From NCBI RefSeq assembly GCF_025999835.1, contig NZ_AP025628.1:930001-994000 (forward strand): a stretch of 64,000 nt of DNA, given 5' to 3'. Below are positions 5,587 to 49,345 of the stretch, piece after piece. The position numbers and the translations under genes are program-made. The stretch comes from Caldinitratiruptor microaerophilus (GTDB lineage: Bacteria; Bacillota; Sulfobacillia; Symbiobacteriales; ZC4RG38). The notes below the pieces were generated by a model. That model saw only the letters and a list, made by a program, of their open reading frames with translations, was not told the DNA's origin and searched no databases. Every line of letters starts with the position of its first letter. The first letter of the stretch is position 1.

Positions 5587-6983
5587 GGACGGTACGGATC
5601 GGCGGAGGGCTGGGCTTCTACGGGGACAGCCTCGTTCCGGCGCTTGAGATGGCGGAGCGGGGGGAAGTCCAGTACATCGCCTTCGACCACCTGGCGGAGC
5701 TGACCCTGGCGATCCTCCAGAAGGATAGGCAACGGGATCCTTCGCTCGGTTACACCCGGGACCTGATCCCTCTCATGGCGTCGATTCTCCCCGTGGCCCG
5801 CCGCAAGGGGATCCGTCTCGTGACGAACGCCGGCGGACTGAACCCACTCGAGGCTGCGCAGGTGGTGGCCCGCCTGGCCGGGCAGCTCGGCCTGTCCCTG
5901 CGGATCGGGGTGGTGGCGGGCGACGACCTGCTGGGCCGCCTCGACGAACTGCGTGGAGCCGGCGCCGACCTGGCGCACGCGGATACGGGCGAGCCGCTGG
6001 AGACGGTCCGGGACCGGCTGGTCTTCGCCAACGCCTACCTGGGAGCGCTGCCGATCGCCCGGGCGTTGGCCCAGGGGGCTCATGTGGTCATCACCGGCCG
6101 TGTGGCGGACAGTGCCCTGTTCCTGGGACCCATCCTGCATGAGTTGGGCTGGGTTCTCCCGGCTCCCGGAGGCGCAGAACCGGACGCTTCGCCGGCGGCC
6201 TGGGATCGGATCGCCGTCGGGGTGGTGGCTGGGCACCTCCTGGAGTGCTCCGGTCAGGTGACCGGCGGGAACCACAGCGGCAACTGGGCCGAGGTGCCGG
6301 ACCTCGACCGGATTGGCTTTCCCGTCGCCGAGGTGGGAGAGGACGGGACACTTCGGATCACCAAGGTACCCGGGACGGGCGGCCGGGTGAACTTCGACAC
6401 CGTGCGGGAGCAGCTCCTGTACGAGGTGCACGACCCCTCCGCGTATCACACGCCGGACGTGACGGTGGATCTCACAGGCGTCGAACTGGACGAGGTCGGG
6501 CCCGACACGGTCCGGGTGCGCGGTGTGCGGGGCCGCAGGCCTCCGTCCGCGTACAAGGTCGTCATGGGCTACCGGGACGGCTTCCTGGGGCAGGGGGTCG
6601 TGGGCTTCTCCTGGCCCGACGCGCTCCGCAAGGCGGAGGCGGCGGCGGAGATCCTCCGCCGCCAGGCCGGCGCCCGCCGGCTGCCGATCGAGGAGTTCCG
6701 GGTCGAGTACCTGGGCCTGGACTCCCTGCACGGCCCCCTGGCGAGCCGCCGGCACGCCGAGGACCTCAACGAGGTGTACCTCCGGGTCGCCGTCCGCACC
6801 CGGAGCCGTGAGGCCGCTGAAGCCTTCGCCCGCCTGCTCCCGCCCCTCGGTCTCAGCGGCCCTCCCACGGCCAGCGGGTTCATCGGCGTCGACCGGGTGC
6901 GGGAGCTGCTGGGCGTCTGGCCTACCCGTGTGCCGCGGGAATGGGTCGACCCGTTTGTGGAGGTCCAGGTCATGGAAGTGTGA
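5583..6983 (+). CDS. atuA: acyclic terpene utilization AtuA-type protein (DUF1446)
   Basis: A 466-residue protein of the AtuA family, whose members occur in terpene and branched-acid catabolic operons. Biochemical function is not established. Recognisable stretches are the N-terminal IGGGLGFYGDSL, FDHLAELTLAIL, LVTNAGGLNP and the ITGRVADSALFLGP segment. The C-terminal ferredoxin-like domain often fused in proteobacterial AtuA is absent here and is supplied by the next gene. The start overlaps the hydratase stop by an ATGA junction, so the two are probably translationally coupled. Confidence 0.85.
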   Translation: MRTVRIGGGLGFYGDSLVPALEMAERGEVQYIAFDHLAELTLAILQKDRQRDPSLGYTRDLIPLMASILPVARRKGIRLVTNAGGLNPLEAAQVVARLAGQLGLSLRIGVVAGDDLLGRLDELRGAGADLAHADTGEPLETVRDRLVFANAYLGALPIARALAQGAHVVITGRVADSALFLGPILHELGWVLPAPGGAEPDASPAAWDRIAVGVVAGHLLECSGQVTGGNHSGNWAEVPDLDRIGFPVAEVGEDGTLRITKVPGTGGRVNFDTVREQLLYEVHDPSAYHTPDVTVDLTGVELDEVGPDTVRVRGVRGRRPPSAYKVVMGYRDGFLGQGVVGFSWPDALRKAEAAAEILRRQAGARRLPIEEFRVEYLGLDSLHGPLASRRHAEDLNEVYLRVAVRTRSREAAEAFARLLPPLGLSGPPTASGFIGVDRVRELLGVWPTRVPREWVDPFVEVQVMEV

Positions 6984-35973: not shown

Positions 35974-36723
35974 TCACTGGATCCCGAAGACGACCCGCAC
36001 CCGCACCTCGAGCCGGCTGGTGCCGGGCAGCACGGGCATGGAGGCGCCGGCGCCCGCAGGGACGGCCGCCTCGGCGCGGACGAGCACCGGCGGCGGCGTG
36101 GCGCCCTCGTCGAGCACGACCACCTCGAGCGGTGCTCCCACCTGCACCCCGAGGCGACCGGCGACCTGCCCGGCCTTCGCGCGGGCGTTGTCGACGGCGC
36201 GCTGCAGGGCGTCGCCCAGCGCACGCTCCTGCTCCCAGACGAGGAACTCGACCCCGTCCACCGTGTTGGCGCCGGCGGCCACGGCCGCGTCGATGAGGGA
36301 CCCGACCTGATCGAGGTTCCGGGTGGTGGCCGTCACGCTCGTGAGCGCGCGGTAGCCCCGGAGCTCCTGCCGCTCTTTCTCGCGGTTCCAGTCGTACTCG
36401 GGATGGAGGGCCAGCGTCGCGGTGCGGAGGGAGTCCTGGTCGATCCCCTTGCCCCGCAGGGCGGCCACCACGGCGTTCATCGCCCGGGCCGCCTCCGCGT
36501 AGGCGGCCGCCGCCGTGGCAGCCTGGCGCTGGACGCCCACGGTGATTCGGGCCGCGTCGGGCCGGGCCTCGACCACCGCCTCGCCCGTGACCTCGATCCC
36601 GCGCCTCTCGGAACCCGGGTCGGCGGCACGGGCCGGCGAGCCGGGCAGGACCGCCGGCGCGGCGAGGGCGGCCGCGCCGGCGGCCGCCAGGGCGAGGGCA
36701 AGAGATCCGAGCCAGCGCTTCAT
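35974..36723 (-). CDS. exported SIMPL (DUF541) domain protein
   Basis: A 249-residue protein with a signal peptide (MKRWLGSLALALAAAGAAAL, then an Ala-Pro-rich stretch to about ARAAD) and one SIMPL domain. IEVTGEAVVEARPDAARITVG (in parts) opens the domain, and YRALTSVTATTRNLDQVGSLID and a C-terminal LEVRVRVVFGIQ strand follow. Family members are envelope proteins such as BP26; some assemble as rings, but the biochemical role is not settled. ATG 36723 follows AAGGGGGA. Confidence 0.85.
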   Translation of the reverse strand: MKRWLGSLALALAAAGAAALAAPAVLPGSPARAADPGSERRGIEVTGEAVVEARPDAARITVGVQRQAATAAAAYAEAARAMNAVVAALRGKGIDQDSLRTATLALHPEYDWNREKERQELRGYRALTSVTATTRNLDQVGSLIDAAVAAGANTVDGVEFLVWEQERALGDALQRAVDNARAKAGQVAGRLGVQVGAPLEVVVLDEGATPPPVLVRAEAAVPAGAGASMPVLPGTSRLEVRVRVVFGIQ

Positions 36724-36803
36724 GGCGAATCCCCCTTGTCTCATCGGAATGGTTCGCCCCTTGGACGGGGGAACCCGGGGGTCGGTTGCACGAAGAATGC
36801 GTC

Positions 36804-36828
36804 GGCCTGCCGGTGGCACCGGCAGGCC
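36804..36828. terminator. hairpin upstream of a tiny membrane-peptide gene
   Basis: GGCCTGCCGGT (36804-36814), loop GGC, ACCGGCAGGCC (36818-36828), an 11-bp perfect stem followed by CGTTTCCG. Weak as a terminator because the T run is short. Confidence 0.35.
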
Positions 36829-38756: not shown

Positions 38757-38785
38757 TTGACAGACGACGCTGCCGCCGGTAGAAT
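38757..38785 (+). promoter_or_regulatory. consensus sigma-A promoter of the c-di-AMP riboswitch operon
   Basis: TTGACA at 38757-38762, 17-base spacer, TAGAAT at 38780-38785. It is the best vegetative promoter in the window. Transcription should start near 38792, giving a leader of about 330 bases that carries the riboswitch. Confidence 0.85.
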
Positions 38786-38835
38786 GAACCCGGAACGCAA
38801 AACCGAACCGCCCGCGCTCGTGCGGGTGGCCGCCT

Positions 38836-38986
38836 GGATCGCCGAATCCCCCGCCGGCAGGCGGGGGAGCGGGGGACCCACCGTTCGGGGCGAATTCGGC
38901 TCCCTCCCGTCCGGGAGGCGGCCGATAGGGCAACCTCCACTGCCCGAGCCCGTCAGCTAACCTCGTAGGCGTTGCGGAGGAGGCAG
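38836..38986 (+). promoter_or_regulatory. c-di-AMP riboswitch (ydaO/yuaA class)
   Basis: The leader contains the conserved elements of the ydaO/yuaA aptamer in order: GATCGCCGAA with a hairpin, GAGCGGGGGACCCA, TTCGGGGCGAAT, a variable hairpin, GATAGGGCAACCTCC, and the diagnostic CCCGTCAGCTAACCTCGTAGG ending with GGCGTTGCGGAGG (the diagnostic string is about 38949-38969). Known members bind cyclic di-AMP and usually turn expression off when it is high, controlling potassium, osmolyte and wall genes. It lies between a consensus promoter and a three-gene operon. Assignment is from consensus match; no covariance search was run. Confidence 0.92.
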
Positions 38987-39004
38987 GGGTCACGGAGGCG
39001 CACG

Positions 39005-39030
39005 GCTCCAGGGCCGCCTGGCCCTGGAGC
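39005..39030 (+). terminator. hairpin in the riboswitch expression platform
   Basis: GCTCCAGGGCC (39005-39015), loop GCCT, GGCCCTGGAGC (39020-39030), an 11-bp perfect stem about 20 bases after the aptamer. No T tract follows, so control might act through pausing, Rho or translation rather than a classic terminator. Confidence 0.5.
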
Positions 39031-39119
39031 GATTCGCGTTCCGGGCCGAGCCGCCGCCTCCCCTCCCGGTCGAGCGGCCGCCGACCCGCGCAGCGCGGGC
39101 ACGGAGGGAGGGCACGTCC

Positions 39120-40289
39120 ATGTTTCGAACCCGACCCGCCGCAGCCGGCCGCCGCGCGGGACCGCGCGGATCGGGGCGCTCGCTCCCGCCGGTGGCGGTG
39201 CTCGGCGCGGGGCACGGGGGATTGCCGCTGGCCGCCTACCTGGCGCTGCAGGGCGCTCCGGTGCGCATCTGGAACCGTTCGCCCGGCCCGGTCGCCGCAG
39301 TCGAGGTCCAGGGCGGCATCCAGCTGGGCCTTCCGGACGGCACCGAGCTCCTGGCCGAGCCCGAGCGGGCCACGTGCGACATCGGCGCGGCGGTCGCCGG
39401 CGCCCGGGTCCTGCTGGTGGCCCTCCCGGCGACCGCCCACGCCGGCGTGGCAAGCCTCCTGGCGCCGCACCTGCGCCCGGGGCAGGCCGTCCTGCTCCTC
39501 CCCGGGCGGACGGGCGGGGCGCTCGAGTTCCGGCGCACCCTGCGCGAGCATGGCGCCCCACCGGGGGTCGTCGTGGGGGAGGCGCAGACGTTCCCGTTCG
39601 CCAGCCGCGTGGTGGCGCCGGGGGTCGCCGCGATCCACGGGATCAAGCGGGAGGTGCCGGTCGCCGCCCTGCCGGCCGGAGACACCCCGCTGCTCCTCGC
39701 CGCCGTGAGCCCGCTCCTGTCGATGGTGACGGCGGCCCCGTCGGTGTTGCACACCTCGCTCGAGAACGTCGGCGCGATGCTGCACCCCGTCATCACGCTG
39801 CTGAACGCCGGCCGCATCGAGAACGACGCCCGCGGCTTCGAGTTCTACGGGGACGGGGTGACCCCCGGCGTCGCCGCGGTCCTGGCGGCCGTGGACGCCG
39901 AGCGGCGGGCCGTAGCGGCGGCGTACGGGGTGCAGGCGCGCGCCCTGTCCGAGTGGATCGAGGCCGCCTATGGGCACCGCGCCCCCGACCTGCACACGGC
40001 GGTCGCCCGCAACCCGGCCTACCGGGGCATCCGGGCTCCGACGGTCCTGAGCCACCGCTACCTGGAGGAGGACGTCCCCACGGGGCTCGTCCCCCTGGCC
40101 GAGCTGGGCATGGCGGCGGAGGTGCCCTGCCCGACGATGGTGGCCCTCATCCGGCTGGCTTCCGCCCTGCACGGGGTGGAGTACTTCCGGACCGGGCGGA
40201 CCCTCGAGCGGCTCGGCCTGGGCGGCCTGACGCCCGACGGCATCCGGCGGTTCGTGCTCGAAGGGGAGGTGGAAGCATGCCCGGCCTGA
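39120..40289 (+). CDS. opine (octopine/nopaline-type) dehydrogenase family protein
   Basis: A 389-residue NAD(P)-dependent dehydrogenase of the family that reductively condenses an amino acid amine with a 2-oxo acid. The Rossmann loop GAGHGG is at residues 29-34. The C-terminal NAD/NADP octopine/nopaline DH domain has ENVGAMLHPVITLLNAGRIE, including the His-Pro of the catalytic site. First gene behind the c-di-AMP riboswitch, with GGAGGGAGGG (39102-39111) before ATG 39120. It overlaps the next gene by 13 bases. Its partner genes suggest it makes or uses a non-protein amino acid; the substrates are unknown. Confidence 0.85.
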   Translation: MFRTRPAAAGRRAGPRGSGRSLPPVAVLGAGHGGLPLAAYLALQGAPVRIWNRSPGPVAAVEVQGGIQLGLPDGTELLAEPERATCDIGAAVAGARVLLVALPATAHAGVASLLAPHLRPGQAVLLLPGRTGGALEFRRTLREHGAPPGVVVGEAQTFPFASRVVAPGVAAIHGIKREVPVAALPAGDTPLLLAAVSPLLSMVTAAPSVLHTSLENVGAMLHPVITLLNAGRIENDARGFEFYGDGVTPGVAAVLAAVDAERRAVAAAYGVQARALSEWIEAAYGHRAPDLHTAVARNPAYRGIRAPTVLSHRYLEEDVPTGLVPLAELGMAAEVPCPTMVALIRLASALHGVEYFRTGRTLERLGLGGLTPDGIRRFVLEGEVEACPA

Positions 40290-41959
40290 TCCTGGGCGCG
40301 GCGGTCGGCGAGTGCGTGCACGTGGCGGGGGTGGCGAACTTCCTCCGCCTGGCGGAGGAGGTCGGGTACCGCACGATCCTGCTGGGGCCGGCGGTGCCGG
40401 TGCCGAGGCTCATGCAGGCGGTCCGGGAGCACGATCCGGACATCGTGGCGGTGGGCTACCGCCTCACGCCGGAGGCCTGGGAAGGGGTCCTCAAGAGCCT
40501 CGTCCGGGCGGTGGACGGGGCCGGGGAAAGGCGCCGGCGCTGGGTGTTCGGCGGCACGGAGCCCACCGCGAGGGTGGCGGCGGCGTCAGGGCTCTTCGAG
40601 GCCGTCTTCGACAGCCGCTCCACCCCGGCCGACGTGCTGGCCTTCCTGCGCGGCGCCGGGGCACGGGAGAGCGGGCGCATGCCGCCCCAGACGCTGGTCG
40701 AGCGCATCCTGTGGAAGCACCCCTACCCGCTGATCCGCCACCACTTCGGCCAGCCCACGGTGGCCGCGACCGAGGCCGGGATCGCGGCGATCGCCGACGC
40801 CGGCGTCCTGGACGTGCTCTCCCTGGGCCCCGACCAGAACGCGCAGGAGCACTTCTTCCGGCCGGAGGAGATGGACCCGGCCCAGGACGGGGCGGGCGGG
40901 GTGCCGGTGCGCACGGCGGACGACCTCCGCCGGCTCTACGCCGCCTCCCGCCGCGGGAACTACCCTCTCATGCGCTGCTACAGCGGGACGCGCGATACGC
41001 TGCGGTGGGCGCCGATGCTTGCGGAGACCATCCGCAACGCCTGGCTCGCCACCCCGCTCTTCTGGTACGGCGTCCTGGACGGCCGCAGCCGCCGGCCGCT
41101 GCGCGAGTCGATCCCCGAGGCGCAGCGGCTCATGCGCTGGCACGCCGAGCGGGGTATCCCGGTGGAGATGAACGAGTCCCACCACTGGAGCCTCAGGGAC
41201 GCGCCCGACGTGGTCGCGGTGGCGGCCGCCTACCTGGCCGCGCGCAACGCCCGTGCGGCCGGCGTGCGGGACTACGTCCAGCAGCTCATGTTCAACACGC
41301 CGCCCGGCACCTCGCCGGCGATGGACCTGGCCAAGATGCTGGCGAAGCTCGACCTGGTGGAGTCCCTCGCCGGCCCGGACTTCCGGGTGTGGCGGGAGAC
41401 GCGGGGCGGCCTGACCTCGTTCCCCGCCGACCCCGACGTCGCCCGGGGGCACCTGGCGGCCACGACGTTCCTGCAGATGCAGCTGCGGCCCCACATCCTC
41501 CACGTGGTGGCGGCCTCCGAGGCGCACCACGCGGCCACGGCGGACGACGTGATCGAGAACTGCCGCATCGCCGACGGCGCCATCCGGCAGGCGCTGCTGG
41601 GCCTGCCGGACATGACCCTCGACCCCCGGGTGGCGGCGCGGAGGCGCCGGCTGGTCGAGGAGGCCCGGCTCCTCCTGGCGGCGATCGCCCACCTGGCCCC
41701 GCCGGGCACGCCCGATCCGCTCACCGACCCGGAGACGCTCGCCCGGGCGGTGGAGGCCGGGCTCCTGGACGCGCCCCACCTGCGCGGCAACCCGGCGGCC
41801 CGCGGGCAGATCGTGACCCGGATGGAGGACGGGGCCTGCGTGGCCGCCGACCCGGCCACCGGCCGGCCGATCGCCGAAGCCGACCGGATCCGGTCGCTCC
41901 TCGGCTTCGTCCCCGATCCGGACGAGCCCGGCGTGCTTCTCACGCCGGCGGGGAGGTGA
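40277..41959 (+). CDS. fused cobalamin-binding and glutamate-mutase-E-like barrel protein
   Basis: A 560-residue protein. Residues 1-110 form a B12-binding Rossmann domain: the usual Asp-x-His-x-x-Gly is present as Cys13-Val-His15-Val-Ala-Gly18, followed by VAVGYRLTPE and a VFGGTEP glycine pair, so the cobalt-ligating histidine is retained. Residues about 150-440 resemble the barrel subunit of glutamate mutase, with YPLMRCYSGTRDTLRW, IPVEMNESHHWSLRD and VVAASEAHHAATADD. A C-terminal helical extension follows. A carbon-skeleton or amino-acid mutase is inferred; exact chemistry is unknown. It lies between opine-dehydrogenase-like and asparagine-synthetase genes. Confidence 0.75.
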   Translation: MPGLILGAAVGECVHVAGVANFLRLAEEVGYRTILLGPAVPVPRLMQAVREHDPDIVAVGYRLTPEAWEGVLKSLVRAVDGAGERRRRWVFGGTEPTARVAAASGLFEAVFDSRSTPADVLAFLRGAGARESGRMPPQTLVERILWKHPYPLIRHHFGQPTVAATEAGIAAIADAGVLDVLSLGPDQNAQEHFFRPEEMDPAQDGAGGVPVRTADDLRRLYAASRRGNYPLMRCYSGTRDTLRWAPMLAETIRNAWLATPLFWYGVLDGRSRRPLRESIPEAQRLMRWHAERGIPVEMNESHHWSLRDAPDVVAVAAAYLAARNARAAGVRDYVQQLMFNTPPGTSPAMDLAKMLAKLDLVESLAGPDFRVWRETRGGLTSFPADPDVARGHLAATTFLQMQLRPHILHVVAASEAHHAATADDVIENCRIADGAIRQALLGLPDMTLDPRVAARRRRLVEEARLLLAAIAHLAPPGTPDPLTDPETLARAVEAGLLDAPHLRGNPAARGQIVTRMEDGACVAADPATGRPIAEADRIRSLLGFVPDPDEPGVLLTPAGR

Positions 41960-41965
41960 GGCGGA

Positions 41966-43504
41966 GTGTGCGGGGTCGCCGGGTACCTGGTCCCCCGGGG
42001 GCGGCCGGAGCCGGACGTCGGGGCGGTGCTCGACGCCATGCCCTGGCGCGGCCCCGACGGCCGGGGCGTGCTGCATGACCAGGGCGGAGGCTACGCGCTG
42101 GGCCTGGGGCACCTGCGCCTCGCCATCATCGACCCGGCCGGAGGGCGGCAGCCCATCTGGAACGAGGACCGGAGCCTGGCCATCGTCCTGAACGGGGAGA
42201 TCTACAACTACCGGGAACTGCGGGAGCGGCTGGGACACCACCGCTTCCGCACCCGGTCGGACGCCGAGGCCGTCCTGCACCTGTACGAGGACGAGGGCCC
42301 GGCCATGTTCCGGCGCCTGATCGGCATGTACGCCCTGGCCATCTGGGACCGGCAGGGGCGGCTCCTCCTGGCCCGGGACCCGCTGGGGATCAAGCCCCTC
42401 TACTGGGCCCGGGACGGGGCGGGCGGCGTGTTCTTCGCCTCGGAGATCAAGGCGCTCCTGCGCATGCACCCGGACGTGCACGCGTTCCCGCCCGGGGCCT
42501 GGTACCGCACCGGCGACGGCCTGCGCCGGTTCTGGACGGTGCCGGCGGGCGGCGGCCTGCGGGACCCCGAGGAGGCGGTGGCGTCCGTGCGCCGCGAGCT
42601 GGTGGCGGCGGTCGACCGCTGCCTCGTGGCCGACGTCCCGGTCGGGGTCTTCCTGTCCGGCGGGCTCGACTCCAGCCTGGTGGCTGCCATCGCCCGGCGC
42701 CTCCACGGGCCGGGGCTCAAGAGCTTCGCCGTGGGGATGGCGGGCTCGCCCGACCTGGCGATGGCCCGGCGGGTGGCGGCCTTCCTCGGCACCGACCACC
42801 ACGAGCACGCCTACACGCCGGCCGAGGTCCGGCGCGTGCTGGGGCCGGTCATCTTCCACCTCGAGTCGTTCGACCCGCCGCTCGTGCGCAGCGCCGTCGC
42901 CACGTACTTCGCGGCCCGCCTGGCCTCCCGCCACGTGAAGGTCGTCCTGACCGGCGAGGGTGCCGACGAGCTCTTCGCGGGGTACCATTACCTCAAGGAG
43001 TTTGCCGGCGACCCCGCGGCGCTCGGCGCCGAACTCCGCCGCATCGTCCGGCGCCTGCACCGGACGAACCTGCAGCGGGGCGACCGGCTGACCATGGCCC
43101 ACGGCGTGGAGGCCCGGGTTCCCTTCCTCGAGGTGCCCGTGGTGGAGGCGGCCCTCCGGATCGACCCGGCCCTGCTCCTCGGCCCGGAGCGCACCGCGGA
43201 GAAATGGCTCCTGCGCCGCGTGGCTGAGCCCTACCTCCCGGAAGAGGTGGTAGGGCGGCGCAAGGAGAAGTTCTCGCTCGGCACCGGGACCGGCCAGTAC
43301 CTCGAGGCGCTGGCAGCGGCGATCCCCGACGCCGAGTTCGAGGCCGGACGCCGTCTTCCGTGGGGCGTGCGGCTGTCGGGCAAGGAAGAGTTCCTCTACT
43401 GGCGCCACTTCGCCCCGTCGCTCGGCCAGGAGCACCTGGTCCGCCGCATGGGGCGGAGCCGGACGCTTGGGGACTACGACAAGAACGCCGCCGCCTGGCG
43501 TTGA
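41966..43504 (+). CDS. asnB: glutamine-hydrolysing asparagine synthetase-like amidotransferase
   Basis: A 512-residue class II amidotransferase. The nucleophile is Cys2 (GTG start then CGVAGYL), glutaminase residues are in RLAIIDP and LNGEIYNY, and the synthetase half carries the PP-loop SGGLDSS and GEGADELFAGYHYL. It is shorter than many AsnB proteins. It would adenylate a carboxylate and convert it to an amide. Being third in a riboswitch-controlled operon with two unusual amino-acid enzymes, its real acceptor may not be aspartate; AsnB paralogues are known to amidate osmolytes and peptides. Confidence 0.88.
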   Translation: MCGVAGYLVPRGRPEPDVGAVLDAMPWRGPDGRGVLHDQGGGYALGLGHLRLAIIDPAGGRQPIWNEDRSLAIVLNGEIYNYRELRERLGHHRFRTRSDAEAVLHLYEDEGPAMFRRLIGMYALAIWDRQGRLLLARDPLGIKPLYWARDGAGGVFFASEIKALLRMHPDVHAFPPGAWYRTGDGLRRFWTVPAGGGLRDPEEAVASVRRELVAAVDRCLVADVPVGVFLSGGLDSSLVAAIARRLHGPGLKSFAVGMAGSPDLAMARRVAAFLGTDHHEHAYTPAEVRRVLGPVIFHLESFDPPLVRSAVATYFAARLASRHVKVVLTGEGADELFAGYHYLKEFAGDPAALGAELRRIVRRLHRTNLQRGDRLTMAHGVEARVPFLEVPVVEAALRIDPALLLGPERTAEKWLLRRVAEPYLPEEVVGRRKEKFSLGTGTGQYLEALAAAIPDAEFEAGRRLPWGVRLSGKEEFLYWRHFAPSLGQEHLVRRMGRSRTLGDYDKNAAAWR

Positions 43505-44775: not shown

Positions 44776-46605
44776 TTGGATCCCAACACCGCCTGGCAAC
44801 GAGAGGCCCCGGCCGCCCCGGCCGGGGCGGTGGAGCGCGTCCCCCGGGGGGCCGCCACCCCCGGGGCTCTGGCGCGCACGTATCACGGCTCCGTCCGAGT
44901 GGTTCACTGGACCGACCTGGCGCTCGCGCTGCTGGTGGCCGGCACGGGGGTGCTGGCCGCCGCGCTGACCCAGGCGTTCGACGAGGCGATCCAGTGGCTC
45001 TACCGGTTTGACTTCGGGACGCTCCCGGCCTTCCTGTCCGCCCGGGGGTGGCCGGGGTGGCTGCCCTACGTGGGCGTGCCGGCCCTGATGGGCGTCGTGG
45101 TCGCTGCGCTCAAGGCGCTGGTTCCGGCGGAGAACAAGGGCCACGCGATCCCGGAGGTCATCGTCGCCCTGCTGCGCCGGGAGGGGCGGATCCCGCTGCG
45201 GTCCACGGTGCTGAAGACCCTTGCTGCCGTGGTGACCCTGGGGTCGGGCGGCTCGCTGGGACGGGAGGGGCCGGTCGTGCTCCTGGGGGGCGGCGCCGGG
45301 TCGGCGGTCGGGCAGGCGCTGCGGCTCCCCGGCGAGTGGGTGAAGGTGCTGGTGGCCGCCGGGGCCGGCGCGGCCATCGCCACGGCGTTCCACGCCCCGA
45401 TCACCGGCGCGTTCTTCGCCCTGGAGATCATCCTCACCCAGTTCACCGCCCGGGCCTTCGCACTCGTGGCGCTCGCCTCGGTCACGGCCGGGGCGGTGGC
45501 CCGCTTCATCATGGCGGCGCCGCCCTTCCCGATCCCGGCGTACCGGCTCCACAGCGCGGGCGAGGTGGTGGCGTACGTGGGGCTGGGCCTGCTGGTCGCC
45601 CCGCTCGCCCTCCTCTACATCCGGGCGCTCCACGGGGCGGAGGAACGGGTGGCCCGGGTGCGGCGCGTGCCGGCGTGGGCCAAGGCGGCGCTGGGCGGGG
45701 TGCTCTTCGGCCTGATCGGCCTCGCCGTGCCCGGCACCCTGGGGCCCGGGTACGAGGTCATCGTCGCCGCGCTCGCCGGCGGCCTGCCCCTGGCCACCCT
45801 CCTGGTCCTGCTGGCGGGCAAGCTCGCCACCTGTTCGATCACCCTCGGGTCGGGGTGGAGCGGGGGCGTGTTCGCCCCCGCGATGTACCTGGGCGCCATG
45901 GCCGGAGGCGCTTACGGCACGGTGCTGGGGATGCTGCTGCCCGGCCGCGTGGGTCCTCCCGGCGCGTACGCGGTGGTGGGGATGGCGGCGATGATCGCCG
46001 GCGCCACCCAGGCGCCGCTCACCGGCATGACCCTGATCCTCGAGGTGACCCGGGACTACCAGATCGCCCTGCCGGCGATGCTCGCCTGCGGCATCGCCAG
46101 CGTGTTCAGTCACCGGCTGACGCCGTACTCGATCGACACCCTGCACCTGCCCGAGAAGGGCGTGGTCCTGCCCTGGCAGGTGCAGGACCTCCGCGGCATC
46201 CCCGTCCGCGAGGCGATGGTCACCCCGGTCCACACCGTCCGGGATGATCAGGTCCTGGGCGACGTGATCCAGCTCATGCAGCGGTACCACCACGACGGCT
46301 ACCCGGTGCTCGACCGGCAGGGCCGGCTGGTCGGGATCATCACGCTGGGCGATATCCGCGACGTGCCGCTCGAAGGCCGCCTCCGCGTCCCCGTGGGGCA
46401 GGTCATGCACCGCGACCTCGAGGTGGTCACGCCCGACCAGTCCCTGGCCGACGCCGCCCTCGCCCTGGCGCGGCGGGGCGTCGGGCGTCTGCCCGTCGTC
46501 GACCCCGACGACCCCCGGCGGCTGCTCGGGATCATCACGCGCAGCGACATCCTCCGGGCGTACCAGGGGCGGATCGGGCAGGGCGGCGGCCTCTTCGGCG
46601 TGTAG
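44776..46605 (+). CDS. ClC-type chloride channel/transporter with CBS pair
   Basis: A 609-residue membrane protein. The ClC domain (residues about 45-440) carries GSGGSLGREGPVV with the gating glutamate, AIATAFHAPITGAFFALE, and GSGWSGGVFAPAMYLGA. A C-terminal CBS pair (about 465-600) reads VREAMVTPVHTVRDDQ and VGQVMHRDLEVVTPDQ; CBS pairs bind adenine nucleotides. The gating Glu allows a proton/chloride antiporter role. TTG 44776 follows GAGGAGGC. It is adjacent to an MscS-type channel, suggesting an ion or osmotic theme with the upstream c-di-AMP operon. Confidence 0.92.
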   Translation: MDPNTAWQREAPAAPAGAVERVPRGAATPGALARTYHGSVRVVHWTDLALALLVAGTGVLAAALTQAFDEAIQWLYRFDFGTLPAFLSARGWPGWLPYVGVPALMGVVVAALKALVPAENKGHAIPEVIVALLRREGRIPLRSTVLKTLAAVVTLGSGGSLGREGPVVLLGGGAGSAVGQALRLPGEWVKVLVAAGAGAAIATAFHAPITGAFFALEIILTQFTARAFALVALASVTAGAVARFIMAAPPFPIPAYRLHSAGEVVAYVGLGLLVAPLALLYIRALHGAEERVARVRRVPAWAKAALGGVLFGLIGLAVPGTLGPGYEVIVAALAGGLPLATLLVLLAGKLATCSITLGSGWSGGVFAPAMYLGAMAGGAYGTVLGMLLPGRVGPPGAYAVVGMAAMIAGATQAPLTGMTLILEVTRDYQIALPAMLACGIASVFSHRLTPYSIDTLHLPEKGVVLPWQVQDLRGIPVREAMVTPVHTVRDDQVLGDVIQLMQRYHHDGYPVLDRQGRLVGIITLGDIRDVPLEGRLRVPVGQVMHRDLEVVTPDQSLADAALALARRGVGRLPVVDPDDPRRLLGIITRSDILRAYQGRIGQGGGLFGV

Positions 46606-46621: not shown

Positions 46622-47728
46622 GTGCGACAAGGAATCCGGCGCAGGGGGGATGGCAGACTGACGAGCCTGCTGTACGCCTCGGTCTACGGAAACCCGGTGT
46701 GGCGGTGGCTGGTGGCCGCCGGGACGGCGGTGGCGGCGTACGTCGCCCTTCGCGTCCTCCAGCGGCTGGTCGCGGGCCAGCTCGGCCGCCTGGCAGCGCA
46801 GACGGCCAACGAGGTCGACGACTTCCTCGCCGACCTGATCCGGCGCCGCACGAAGGCACCCTTCCTCTTCATCGCGGCTCTCTTTGCCGGCACCCTGGTG
46901 GTGTCCCTCCCCGACCGCGCCCAGCAGGTGGTGCGGGGCGCCTTCCTGACCGCCCTCTGGCTGCAGGTGGCGGTCTGGGGCAACGCCGCCATCGCCTGGT
47001 GGCTGCCGCGGCTTTACCGCCGGCAGGGGGAGCTGGACGCCGAGACGGCCTCGGTCTACAGCGCCCTGTCGCTCATCTCGCGGGTCGGGCTCTGGGTGCT
47101 GGTGCTGCTCCTCGTCCTGGAGGGCGTGGGGGTCAAGGTGACCGCCCTGGTCGCCGGCCTGGGGCTCGCCGGGGTGGCCGTGGCGCTGGCCGTCCAGAAC
47201 GTCCTCGGGGACCTGTTCGCGTCGCTCTCGATCGTGCTGGACAAGCCCTTCGTCGTCGGCGACTTCATCGTCGTGGGGGACTTCCTGGGCACCGTCGAGC
47301 ACGTGGGGATCAAGACGACCCGGGTCCGCAGCCTTTCCGGCGAGCAGATCGTGTTCTCCAACGCCGACCTGCTCCAGAGCCGGATCCGGAACTACAAGCG
47401 GATGCAGGAGCGCCGGGTGGTCTTCGAGCTCGGCGTGACCTACGAAACCCCTTACGAGAAGCTCGCCGCCATCCCGGACATGGTCCGGGCGATCATCTCG
47501 GAGCAGCCCCACGCCCGCTTCGACCGGGCGCACTTCGCCCGCTACGGCGACTTCTCCCTGGTGTTCGAGGTCGTGTACTACGTCACCAGCCCGGATTACA
47601 ACCTCTACATGGACACGCAGCAGGCCATTAACCTGGCGATCTTCCGCCGGTTCCAGGAGGAGGGCATCGAGTTCGCCTACCCGACGCAGAAGCTCTACTT
47701 GAGCCCGGCCCACACGGCCAGGGCGTAG
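46622..47728 (+). CDS. MscS-family mechanosensitive ion channel
   Basis: A 368-residue MscS-type channel. Four or five hydrophobic helices fill residues 25-190, the pore helix being VTALVAGLGLAGVAVALAVQ. The beta domain begins GDLFASLSIVLDKPFVVGDFI in parts and has TTRVRSLSGEQIVFSNADLL, given as TTRVRSLSGEQI and VFSNADLL. It opens under membrane tension to release solutes on osmotic downshift. The start may be GTG 46622 or an in-frame CTG at 46658 that follows GGGGGGATGG. Confidence 0.9.
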   Translation: MRQGIRRRGDGRLTSLLYASVYGNPVWRWLVAAGTAVAAYVALRVLQRLVAGQLGRLAAQTANEVDDFLADLIRRRTKAPFLFIAALFAGTLVVSLPDRAQQVVRGAFLTALWLQVAVWGNAAIAWWLPRLYRRQGELDAETASVYSALSLISRVGLWVLVLLLVLEGVGVKVTALVAGLGLAGVAVALAVQNVLGDLFASLSIVLDKPFVVGDFIVVGDFLGTVEHVGIKTTRVRSLSGEQIVFSNADLLQSRIRNYKRMQERRVVFELGVTYETPYEKLAAIPDMVRAIISEQPHARFDRAHFARYGDFSLVFEVVYYVTSPDYNLYMDTQQAINLAIFRRFQEEGIEFAYPTQKLYLSPAHTARA

Positions 47729-47935: not shown

Positions 47936-49195
47936 TTAGCCGGCGGCCAGGTAAGGGAGTAGCTCAGCAGGGGCGACCCGGAGGGCGGCGTACAGTTCGC
48001 CAGCGAACCACCGGGCCGGCTTCTCACCCTGCCTGGCCATGCGGAGGCGGCGGTAGACGAAAGTGAGGAAGAGGTTGAAGGCCACCGCCAGGAGCAGCCA
48101 GGTGCTGAGCAGTGCCTCCGGGCTTTGGTGGGCGAACGGGTGGTTCCAGTGGAACTCGTGCTTGAGCTGGTGAAAGCCGGTGTTCTCGAGGTTCCAGCGG
48201 TGATGAGCCGCCTCCCACAGAGCCCGGGTGGGAAGCTGTCCCGGGGACAGGTTGGTGGCGTAGAAGGCCCTGGGGCGGAGCCTGCCGGGGAAGGGGGTCT
48301 GGCGGCGGCGGGTGGCGGGTTCGGGGAGTTCCTCCTCGTCCACGATCAGAACCCGCAGGGCGCCGGGGTACGAGTCCCACGAGGTGAAGTGGTCCTCGTC
48401 CCATGCCTGGACCCGGAGGCGGCGGTGGCCCCACGAAGTGACCCAACGGGCGGGTTGGGAGCGGGCGGCCAGGGCCTGAGCGTCGCGGAGCAGCAGGCGG
48501 CGCTCCTGGTCTTTGACCCGGACGATGAACCCGCGGCCAAGCCGGTCGATCTGGGCGAGGAAGGGTCCCTGGGCGAAGCCGGCGTCGAGGAGGAAGACGT
48601 GGACCCAGGGAAAGGCGTTGGCGAGCCGGTCGACGAGGCGGCCAGCCGCGGCCACTTCGGACTCGCCCCGCTGGACGGGTTCGAGGTCGAGGAGGATGCG
48701 GGGGTGGGTGCCGACGATGGAGGCGACGACAACCCGGTGGTAGTATTCGGTCTGACCGTCGGCCCGGGTACGGGAGAGGCAAGCGGCGCAGTGGCGGTGG
48801 GGGGTGTGGAAGGGCTCGCTGCCGTCGATGGCGACCATGACGAAGGGGCCGACGGAGCCGGGGGACCAGAGCTTGTTGCGGCGCATGCGGCGGATGAGGG
48901 GGACGAGGAGCTGGGTGCGGAGGGAGTCGTGGTCGAGCTGAGCGGCGATGCGGGCGAGGGAGTCGGCGCTGATGTGGCGACCGGTGAGACGGTGCAGGGC
49001 GGGACGGTCGAGAAGGCGGCCGAGTTCCTCGCGGCTGTGGACGCGGGCGACGAAACCGAGGATCCAGGCAAGCAGGGCGGAATGGGTAGGGATCTGGGCA
49101 CGGGCGGGATGGCGGTGGGCACGGACAGGGGCGAGGAGCTGGGGGAGCAGAAACGTGCTGGAGGCATAGCGAAGGAACTGGCTGAGGAGTTTCAT
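47936..49195 (-). CDS. DDE transposase of the insertion sequence
   Basis: A 419-residue IS4-like DDE transposase. Catalytic-region marks are VAIDGSEPFH (first Asp), FLLDAGFAQGP (second Asp) and HHRWNLENTGFHQLKHEF (Tyr/Arg/Glu-type C1 signature, with the catalytic Glu). The C-terminal LLAVAFNLFLTFVYRRL helix is common in such enzymes. ATG 49195 follows GGGGAGGT; an in-frame extension upstream lacks a ribosome site. The frame is intact, so the element may be active. Confidence 0.88.
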   Translation of the reverse strand: MKLLSQFLRYASSTFLLPQLLAPVRAHRHPARAQIPTHSALLAWILGFVARVHSREELGRLLDRPALHRLTGRHISADSLARIAAQLDHDSLRTQLLVPLIRRMRRNKLWSPGSVGPFVMVAIDGSEPFHTPHRHCAACLSRTRADGQTEYYHRVVVASIVGTHPRILLDLEPVQRGESEVAAAGRLVDRLANAFPWVHVFLLDAGFAQGPFLAQIDRLGRGFIVRVKDQERRLLLRDAQALAARSQPARWVTSWGHRRLRVQAWDEDHFTSWDSYPGALRVLIVDEEELPEPATRRRQTPFPGRLRPRAFYATNLSPGQLPTRALWEAAHHRWNLENTGFHQLKHEFHWNHPFAHQSPEALLSTWLLLAVAFNLFLTFVYRRLRMARQGEKPARWFAGELYAALRVAPAELLPYLAAG

Positions 49196-49345
49196 TCTCG
49201 ACCTCCCCGGCCACCCATTTGGGAGAGGATGGGTGGTCCGGGATTCTTCTTCGCGCCTTACCAACAAATTCCTCCTAGGCAGGCCGCGAATTTTGCGGGT
49301 CACACCAACGGCCGCGAATTGTCACTGCGATCCGGGGTAGCGCGG

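Follow-up and report, generated by a model that had tools for sequence, protein, structure and literature searches.

What is made by an operon that places an opine dehydrogenase and a cobalamin-dependent mutase-like protein under a riboswitch for cyclic di-AMP (c-di-AMP)? The question arises from a 64,000-nucleotide stretch of the Caldinitratiruptor microaerophilus genome (contig NZ_AP025628.1, positions 930,001 to 994,000; hereafter the window), in which an aptamer of the ydaO/yuaA class precedes three adjacent genes. These are designated ODH (opine dehydrogenase), MUT (a B12-binding domain fused to a barrel like that of glutamate mutase E, MutE) and ASN (an AsnB-type enzyme; Table 1). Computational analysis established that the aptamer and the three enzyme families are present, that the linkage of the genes is conserved and that unlinked copies have aptamers of their own. 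We assign a probability of about 0.58 to the reading that this is a c-di-AMP-repressed osmotic-response operon making an opine-derived compatible solute or potassium counter-solute. A first-pass annotation of the window had proposed an undescribed c-di-AMP-governed biosynthetic route, and this holds: the aptamer belongs to RF00379, the enzymes fall in the expected families, and no prior account of the gene combination was found in the mainly open-access literature searched; older riboswitch surveys may list the genes.

Riboswitch control across genomes

A covariance search, one of the checks proposed in the first-pass annotation, placed the leader element in RF00379, over the full model and above the family's gathering threshold of 38 bits, and its conserved core is identical in kind to that of 28 aligned aptamers from related loci. 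This agrees with the class named in the first-pass annotation, whose consensus promoter and platform hairpin were also recovered (Table 1). No second RF00379 copy was found in the 3.6-Mb genome, where the window aptamer is the only one. Two diadenylate cyclase domains are encoded in the genome, and c-di-AMP is therefore probably made by the host.

In many relatives, among them L002, L005, L007 and L015, the aptamer is directly followed at the corresponding place by a hairpin and then a U-run, which is the predicted layout of a transcriptional OFF switch. In the window leader, switching may perhaps operate by masking of the Shine-Dalgarno sequence, with which a candidate anti-Shine-Dalgarno stretch is predicted to pair; comparable pairing is predicted by folding in L002 and L005. 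At another locus (L075), two c-di-AMP aptamers stand in tandem (6509-6632 and 6772-6898) ahead of one ODH-MUT operon, and a U-run hairpin was not found after the second.

Relatives of MUT were sampled by a single pattern-based scan of ~85,000 species genomes with a limit of 80 loci, which represents part of the MUT relatives; counts over these loci are phylogenetically non-independent and describe relatives of the window MUT only. Aptamer position was tested in 50 genomes with MUT loci, and in 31 an aptamer immediately precedes ODH-MUT in the same orientation. The RF00379 class is present in 34 of the 50, and 31 of those 34 have it ahead of ODH-MUT. The strongest regulatory evidence comes from copies of ODH and ASN that have split off, each of which is under its own aptamer. 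The genome of L009 has MUT-ASN without ODH, and its ODH lies elsewhere (L152) behind an aptamer; at L079, ASN is located apart from MUT with its own aptamer and terminator. Neither a Na+ riboswitch nor any other was found at 22 scanned loci that lack a c-di-AMP aptamer.

The genes that follow the other aptamers read in these genomes were identified by inspecting the encoded proteins. They appear to encode transporters resembling OpuC, KimA and Ktr/Trk, and wall proteins of SH3/LysM or RlpA-like type, which together make up the usual c-di-AMP regulon. One aptamer (L154, G008:C9) lies ahead of an apparent SulP-type anion transporter, also read by inspection.

Na+ and c-di-AMP riboswitches govern the beta-lysine and beta-glutamate osmolyte genes ablA and eam, and Dehalobacter ablA has a tandem Na+/c-di-AMP riboswitch (PMC9337991). 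An amino-acid-rearranging osmolyte pathway under c-di-AMP thus has precedent. The Dehalobacter system shares with the present operon the riboswitch class, the expected OFF logic and control of an amino-acid-rearranging enzyme. The enzymes themselves differ: ablA encodes lysine 2,3-aminomutase, whereas the present operon encodes an opine dehydrogenase and a fused adenosylcobalamin (AdoCbl) mutase, and a scan of the window gave no Na+ riboswitch.

The dehydrogenase-mutase core

ODH is encoded beside MUT in 77 of the 80 loci, which span Bacillota, Bacteroidota, Ignavibacteria, Planctomycetota, Armatimonadota, Acidobacteria, Spirochaetes and methanogenic archaea, as read from record titles. The association of ODH with MUT, and at some loci with ASN, is not due to chance. 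This is the outcome of a co-occurrence survey suggested by the first-pass annotation, and the close packing it described is equally real, with a 13-nucleotide overlap between ODH and MUT and a 6-nucleotide gap from MUT to ASN. The set is intact in Thermoanaerobacter (L011), and Caldanaerobacter (L012) has it with an ASN that lacks the glutaminase Cys. A search for plasmid carriage gave no match.

ODH is the sole PF02317 gene of the genome. Its nearest solved structure is N-(1-D-carboxyethyl)-L-norvaline dehydrogenase (CENDH, PDB 1bg6), with full-length likeness (7.3e-84), and alignment with 1bg6 shows that His202, Arg292 and Asp297 of CENDH, which we take to be the two catalytic residues and the one that binds the carboxylate of the keto acid, are all conserved. 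ODH is likely to perform true opine dehydrogenase chemistry. Unlike CENDH, it has a B12 mutase gene as its partner at nearly all loci examined.

The N-terminal 111 residues of MUT form a B12-binding domain (PF02310, 1.9e-9) with the lower-ligand His conserved, and a triosephosphate isomerase (TIM) barrel of the MutE type follows. The Met_asp_mut_E family PF06368 stays under its gathering cut-off on the window protein (16.8 vs 26.6 bits) and matches 25 of 51 MUT homologues (best 3.8e-9). An AlphaFold2 model with a predicted local distance difference test score of 91.2 has glutamate mutase E as its best PDB fold match (1cb7_B, E 1.5e-15), and profile-profile comparison with genuine MutE sequences gave 96% probability and an E of 4e-9 over 445 columns.

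This likeness favours a route near the one first proposed, in which MUT would be a single-chain glutamate mutase yielding 3-methylaspartate, followed by alkylation by ODH and amidation by ASN. The conserved lower-ligand His fits this route, as does invariant Glu415, which aligns with a presumably ribose-contacting residue of MutE, Glu330. The substrate site does not. MutE Arg66, Arg100 and Arg149, presumably the claw that holds the glutamate carboxylates, align with invariant His156, Gln190 and Tyr235 of MUT in a profile alignment at 13% identity, where single residues may shift by 1-2 positions; MUT Arg154 and Arg233 sit two residues off two of the claw-equivalent sites. Because the three glutamate-holding arginines are not conserved, the substrate of MUT is probably not glutamate. 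Searches of the genome yielded neither a separate MutE nor a methylaspartase above cut-off, nor a MutL by Pfam, although a cobalamin adenosyltransferase is encoded; gene content thus indicates that the operon is not part of a glutamate-fermentation pathway. We consider the 3-methylaspartate route unlikely. The call of a glutamate-mutase-type enzyme is upheld for the fold and probably not for the substrate. MUT shares the B12 domain, the barrel, the His and the Glu with glutamate mutase (MutS/MutE, 1cb7) and differs in being one chain, in its N-terminal B12 domain, in the replaced claw and in a CxHxxG motif in most family members where glutamate mutase has DxHxxG. Because the pocket is altered, the opine, over its amino-acid precursor, is favoured as the putative substrate.

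Several more distant proteins were noted. L134 and L135 (G164:C59 and G132:C156), from other Bacillota, are up to ~1,200 amino acids long and apparently combine a B12 domain, a MUT-like barrel and a MutL-like ATPase; this C-terminal region, as read from sequence, is consistent with an AdoCbl mutase identity. L118-L122 are divergent MutE-family proteins scoring ~190-310 bits to PF06368; their match to the N-terminal part of the barrel is largely missing, and they may form a further mutase subfamily. The control genome of Haloferax volcanii gave PF06368 and MutL matches, both sub-threshold, which might reflect a MUT relative in a halophile.

The amide-forming step

ASN combines PF00733 (8.4e-74) and GATase_7 (1.1e-42) domains, and the window copy keeps the N-terminal nucleophile Cys of a glutaminase (MCGVAGY). 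Its nearest solved structure is E. coli AsnB (PDB 1ct9, 6e-81), with which it shares both the GATase and synthetase domains and the PP-loop SGGLDSS; it scores 402 against a cut-off of 267 for TIGR01536 and 496.5 against 499, just under, for PRK09431. Unlike an ordinary AsnB, it is a second copy, another AsnB being encoded elsewhere in the genome, and in its relatives the Cys or the greater part of the GATase domain is gone. The Thr of the DVTTIRAS motif, which we take to matter in aspartate activation, is not conserved.

The glutaminase Cys is kept in 11 of 33 alignable homologues and lost in 22, and in 18 of these much of the GATase domain is missing as well. L003, L005, L009 and L012 appear to have lost the Cys independently and more recently; L005 is one of the window's nearest relatives. 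Because the Cys is lost in 22 of 33, glutamine hydrolysis is, on the alignment, not essential to this step. The Cys-less homologues resemble beta-lactam synthetase and CarA (1jgt, 1q15), in which an AsnB fold with a dead glutaminase acts on N-carboxyalkyl-type substrates; in sequence, ASN is nearer to AsnB (6e-81) than to these two (2.9e-21 and 7e-14). N-acetylglutaminylglutamine amide synthesis, by an AsnB-like amidotransferase and an ATP-grasp enzyme, likewise uses an amide-forming AsnB-type enzyme for an osmolyte, but ASN falls far under the TIGR03104 cut-off (252.9 vs 570.1) and the partner enzymes differ.

By tblastn, ASN adjoins MUT in 34 of the 80 loci, or 34 of the 74 that are untruncated, six ending just after MUT. 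A tally of 40 of 80 included overlapping-frame artefacts and was rejected. Among 29 genomes without ASN beside MUT, three (G007, G020, G026) have, at another site, a clear member of the ASN family or a strong relative of it, and a fourth (G033) has a partial match only.

At L019, L036, L041 and L048, a D-Ala-D-Ala-ligase-like (Ddl-like) ATP-grasp gene lies between the aptamer and ODH. No ASN lies near the operon at L019, L036 and L048, and a full-length copy is also absent from the rest of those genomes; the L041 sequence is cut off directly behind MUT. By gene content, the ligase substitutes for ASN in the operon at at least three loci. Other Ddl candidates were rejected as replacements: those at L016, L018, L021 and L076 are ordinary Ddl genes on the opposite strand, and those at L054 and L064 sit upstream of the aptamer. 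The best reading of the sequences is that ODH and MUT are the core and that the amide-forming last step is variable and optional, so that amidation as a core step, as first proposed, is not borne out. Since ODH and MUT occur without ASN or the ATP-grasp enzyme, their product should be useful alone, the amide step being a refinement.

A wall-type ligase inside the operon, together with the wall proteins that follow c-di-AMP riboswitches in the same genomes, might point to a product for the cell wall or envelope, such as an opine-containing or amidated peptide precursor, in place of a cytosolic solute. The core pair is found, however, in methanogenic archaea without peptidoglycan (L028, L074), and genes of Mur-like or export type show no consistent linkage across the MUT loci, which leaves an envelope product improbable.

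Genomic setting and proposed pathway

Downstream of the operon, the first-pass annotation had pointed to ClC and MscS channels. Both are present, in tandem; as evidence for an osmotic role they fail, with ClC at none and MscS at one of the 80 MUT loci. A functional link to the operon was rejected and the neighbourhood taken as local to this genome. A transposase gene lies just past the channels, and a SIMPL (DUF541) gene on the other side of the operon is near genes for an NT5C-type nucleotidase and a 4HBT thioesterase (Table 1).

Table 1. Features of the operon and its surroundings, in window coordinates
Feature	Position	Strand	Evidence or remark
SIMPL (DUF541) protein	35974-36819	-	
Sigma-70-type promoter, TTGACA-17-TAGAAT	38757-38785	+	11/12 consensus positions; 0.0 ± 0.1 expected in shuffles
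c-di-AMP riboswitch aptamer (ydaO/yuaA class)	38830-38986	+	RF00379, 79.9 bits, E 6.1e-17, model 1-134 (full)
Platform hairpin, GC-rich	39005-39030	+	11-bp stem by folding
Candidate anti-Shine-Dalgarno stretch GCCUCCCCUCCC	39056-39067	+	Putative; predicted to pair with 39103-39112
ODH Shine-Dalgarno GGAGGGAGGG	39103-39112	+	7 nucleotides upstream of ATG at 39120
ODH, opine dehydrogenase	39120-40289	+	389 amino acids; PF02317 8.7e-46
MUT, B12-binding and MutE-like barrel fusion	40277-41959	+	560 amino acids
ASN, AsnB-type glutamine-dependent amide-forming enzyme	41966-43504	+	512 amino acids; GTG start
ClC chloride channel with CBS domains	44776-46605		
MscS-type channel	46622-47728		
DDE_Tnp_1 transposase	47936-49303	-	

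Under the osmotic-response reading, c-di-AMP would bind the leader when potassium and turgor are high and turn the operon off, by terminator formation in the relatives and perhaps by Shine-Dalgarno masking in the window; when an osmolyte is needed, c-di-AMP would fall and the operon would be expressed. ODH would reductively join an amino acid and a 2-oxo acid to an opine, and MUT would catalyse an AdoCbl-dependent 1,2-shift on the opine or its amino-acid precursor. Where present, ASN would activate a carboxylate with ATP and form an amide, drawing its nitrogen from glutamine-derived ammonia here and, with a dead glutaminase, probably from an amine, internal or external, or from free ammonia. 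This dispensable step would cut the charge of the solute or add to its bulk. The order ODH, MUT, ASN is a guess, with odds somewhat below even.

Several observations weigh against this reading. The window platform has no U-run, and the predicted access of its Shine-Dalgarno sequence is 0.11 in both folds tested, giving no clear switch. No MutL-type reactivase was found in the genome with Pfam, which leaves maintenance of the AdoCbl cofactor without explanation. ODH-MUT is widespread outside Bacillota, where no c-di-AMP riboswitch was found, so that osmotic control is supported by association in one group only, and c-di-AMP riboswitches control wall genes too. That the product is a signal, a metallophore-like opine or another secondary metabolite, and that c-di-AMP control merely accompanies growth state, is very improbable: opine dehydrogenases of other bacteria do produce metallophores, and beta-lactam synthetase and CarA are known examples of an AsnB architecture with a dead glutaminase, but no metal-transporter, export or resistance gene is consistently linked across the MUT loci, ODH belongs to the CENDH/octopine family, and an operon common to fermentative thermophiles and archaea looks more like a primary-metabolism trait.

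The compatible-solute reading extends to a cross-phylum metabolic prediction. Its fullest form, which we offer tentatively and regard as rather doubtful, is a compatible solute of a new class. An AdoCbl mutase would act on the opine itself and rearrange it, and in some lineages an AsnB-fold or ATP-grasp enzyme would close or cap the product; the solute would be made in many bacterial phyla and in some archaea, with c-di-AMP as the switch in Bacillota. Only a small number of carbon-skeleton mutases depend on B12, and one more family, linked to opine synthesis, would bring a new reaction. The gene set occurs in cultivated Thermoanaerobacter and Caldanaerobacter, where the prediction can be tested. 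Should the product prove to be an osmolyte, no earlier compatible solute of opine type and dependent on B12 is known to us, and c-di-AMP would be linked to the synthesis of solutes in addition to their transport.

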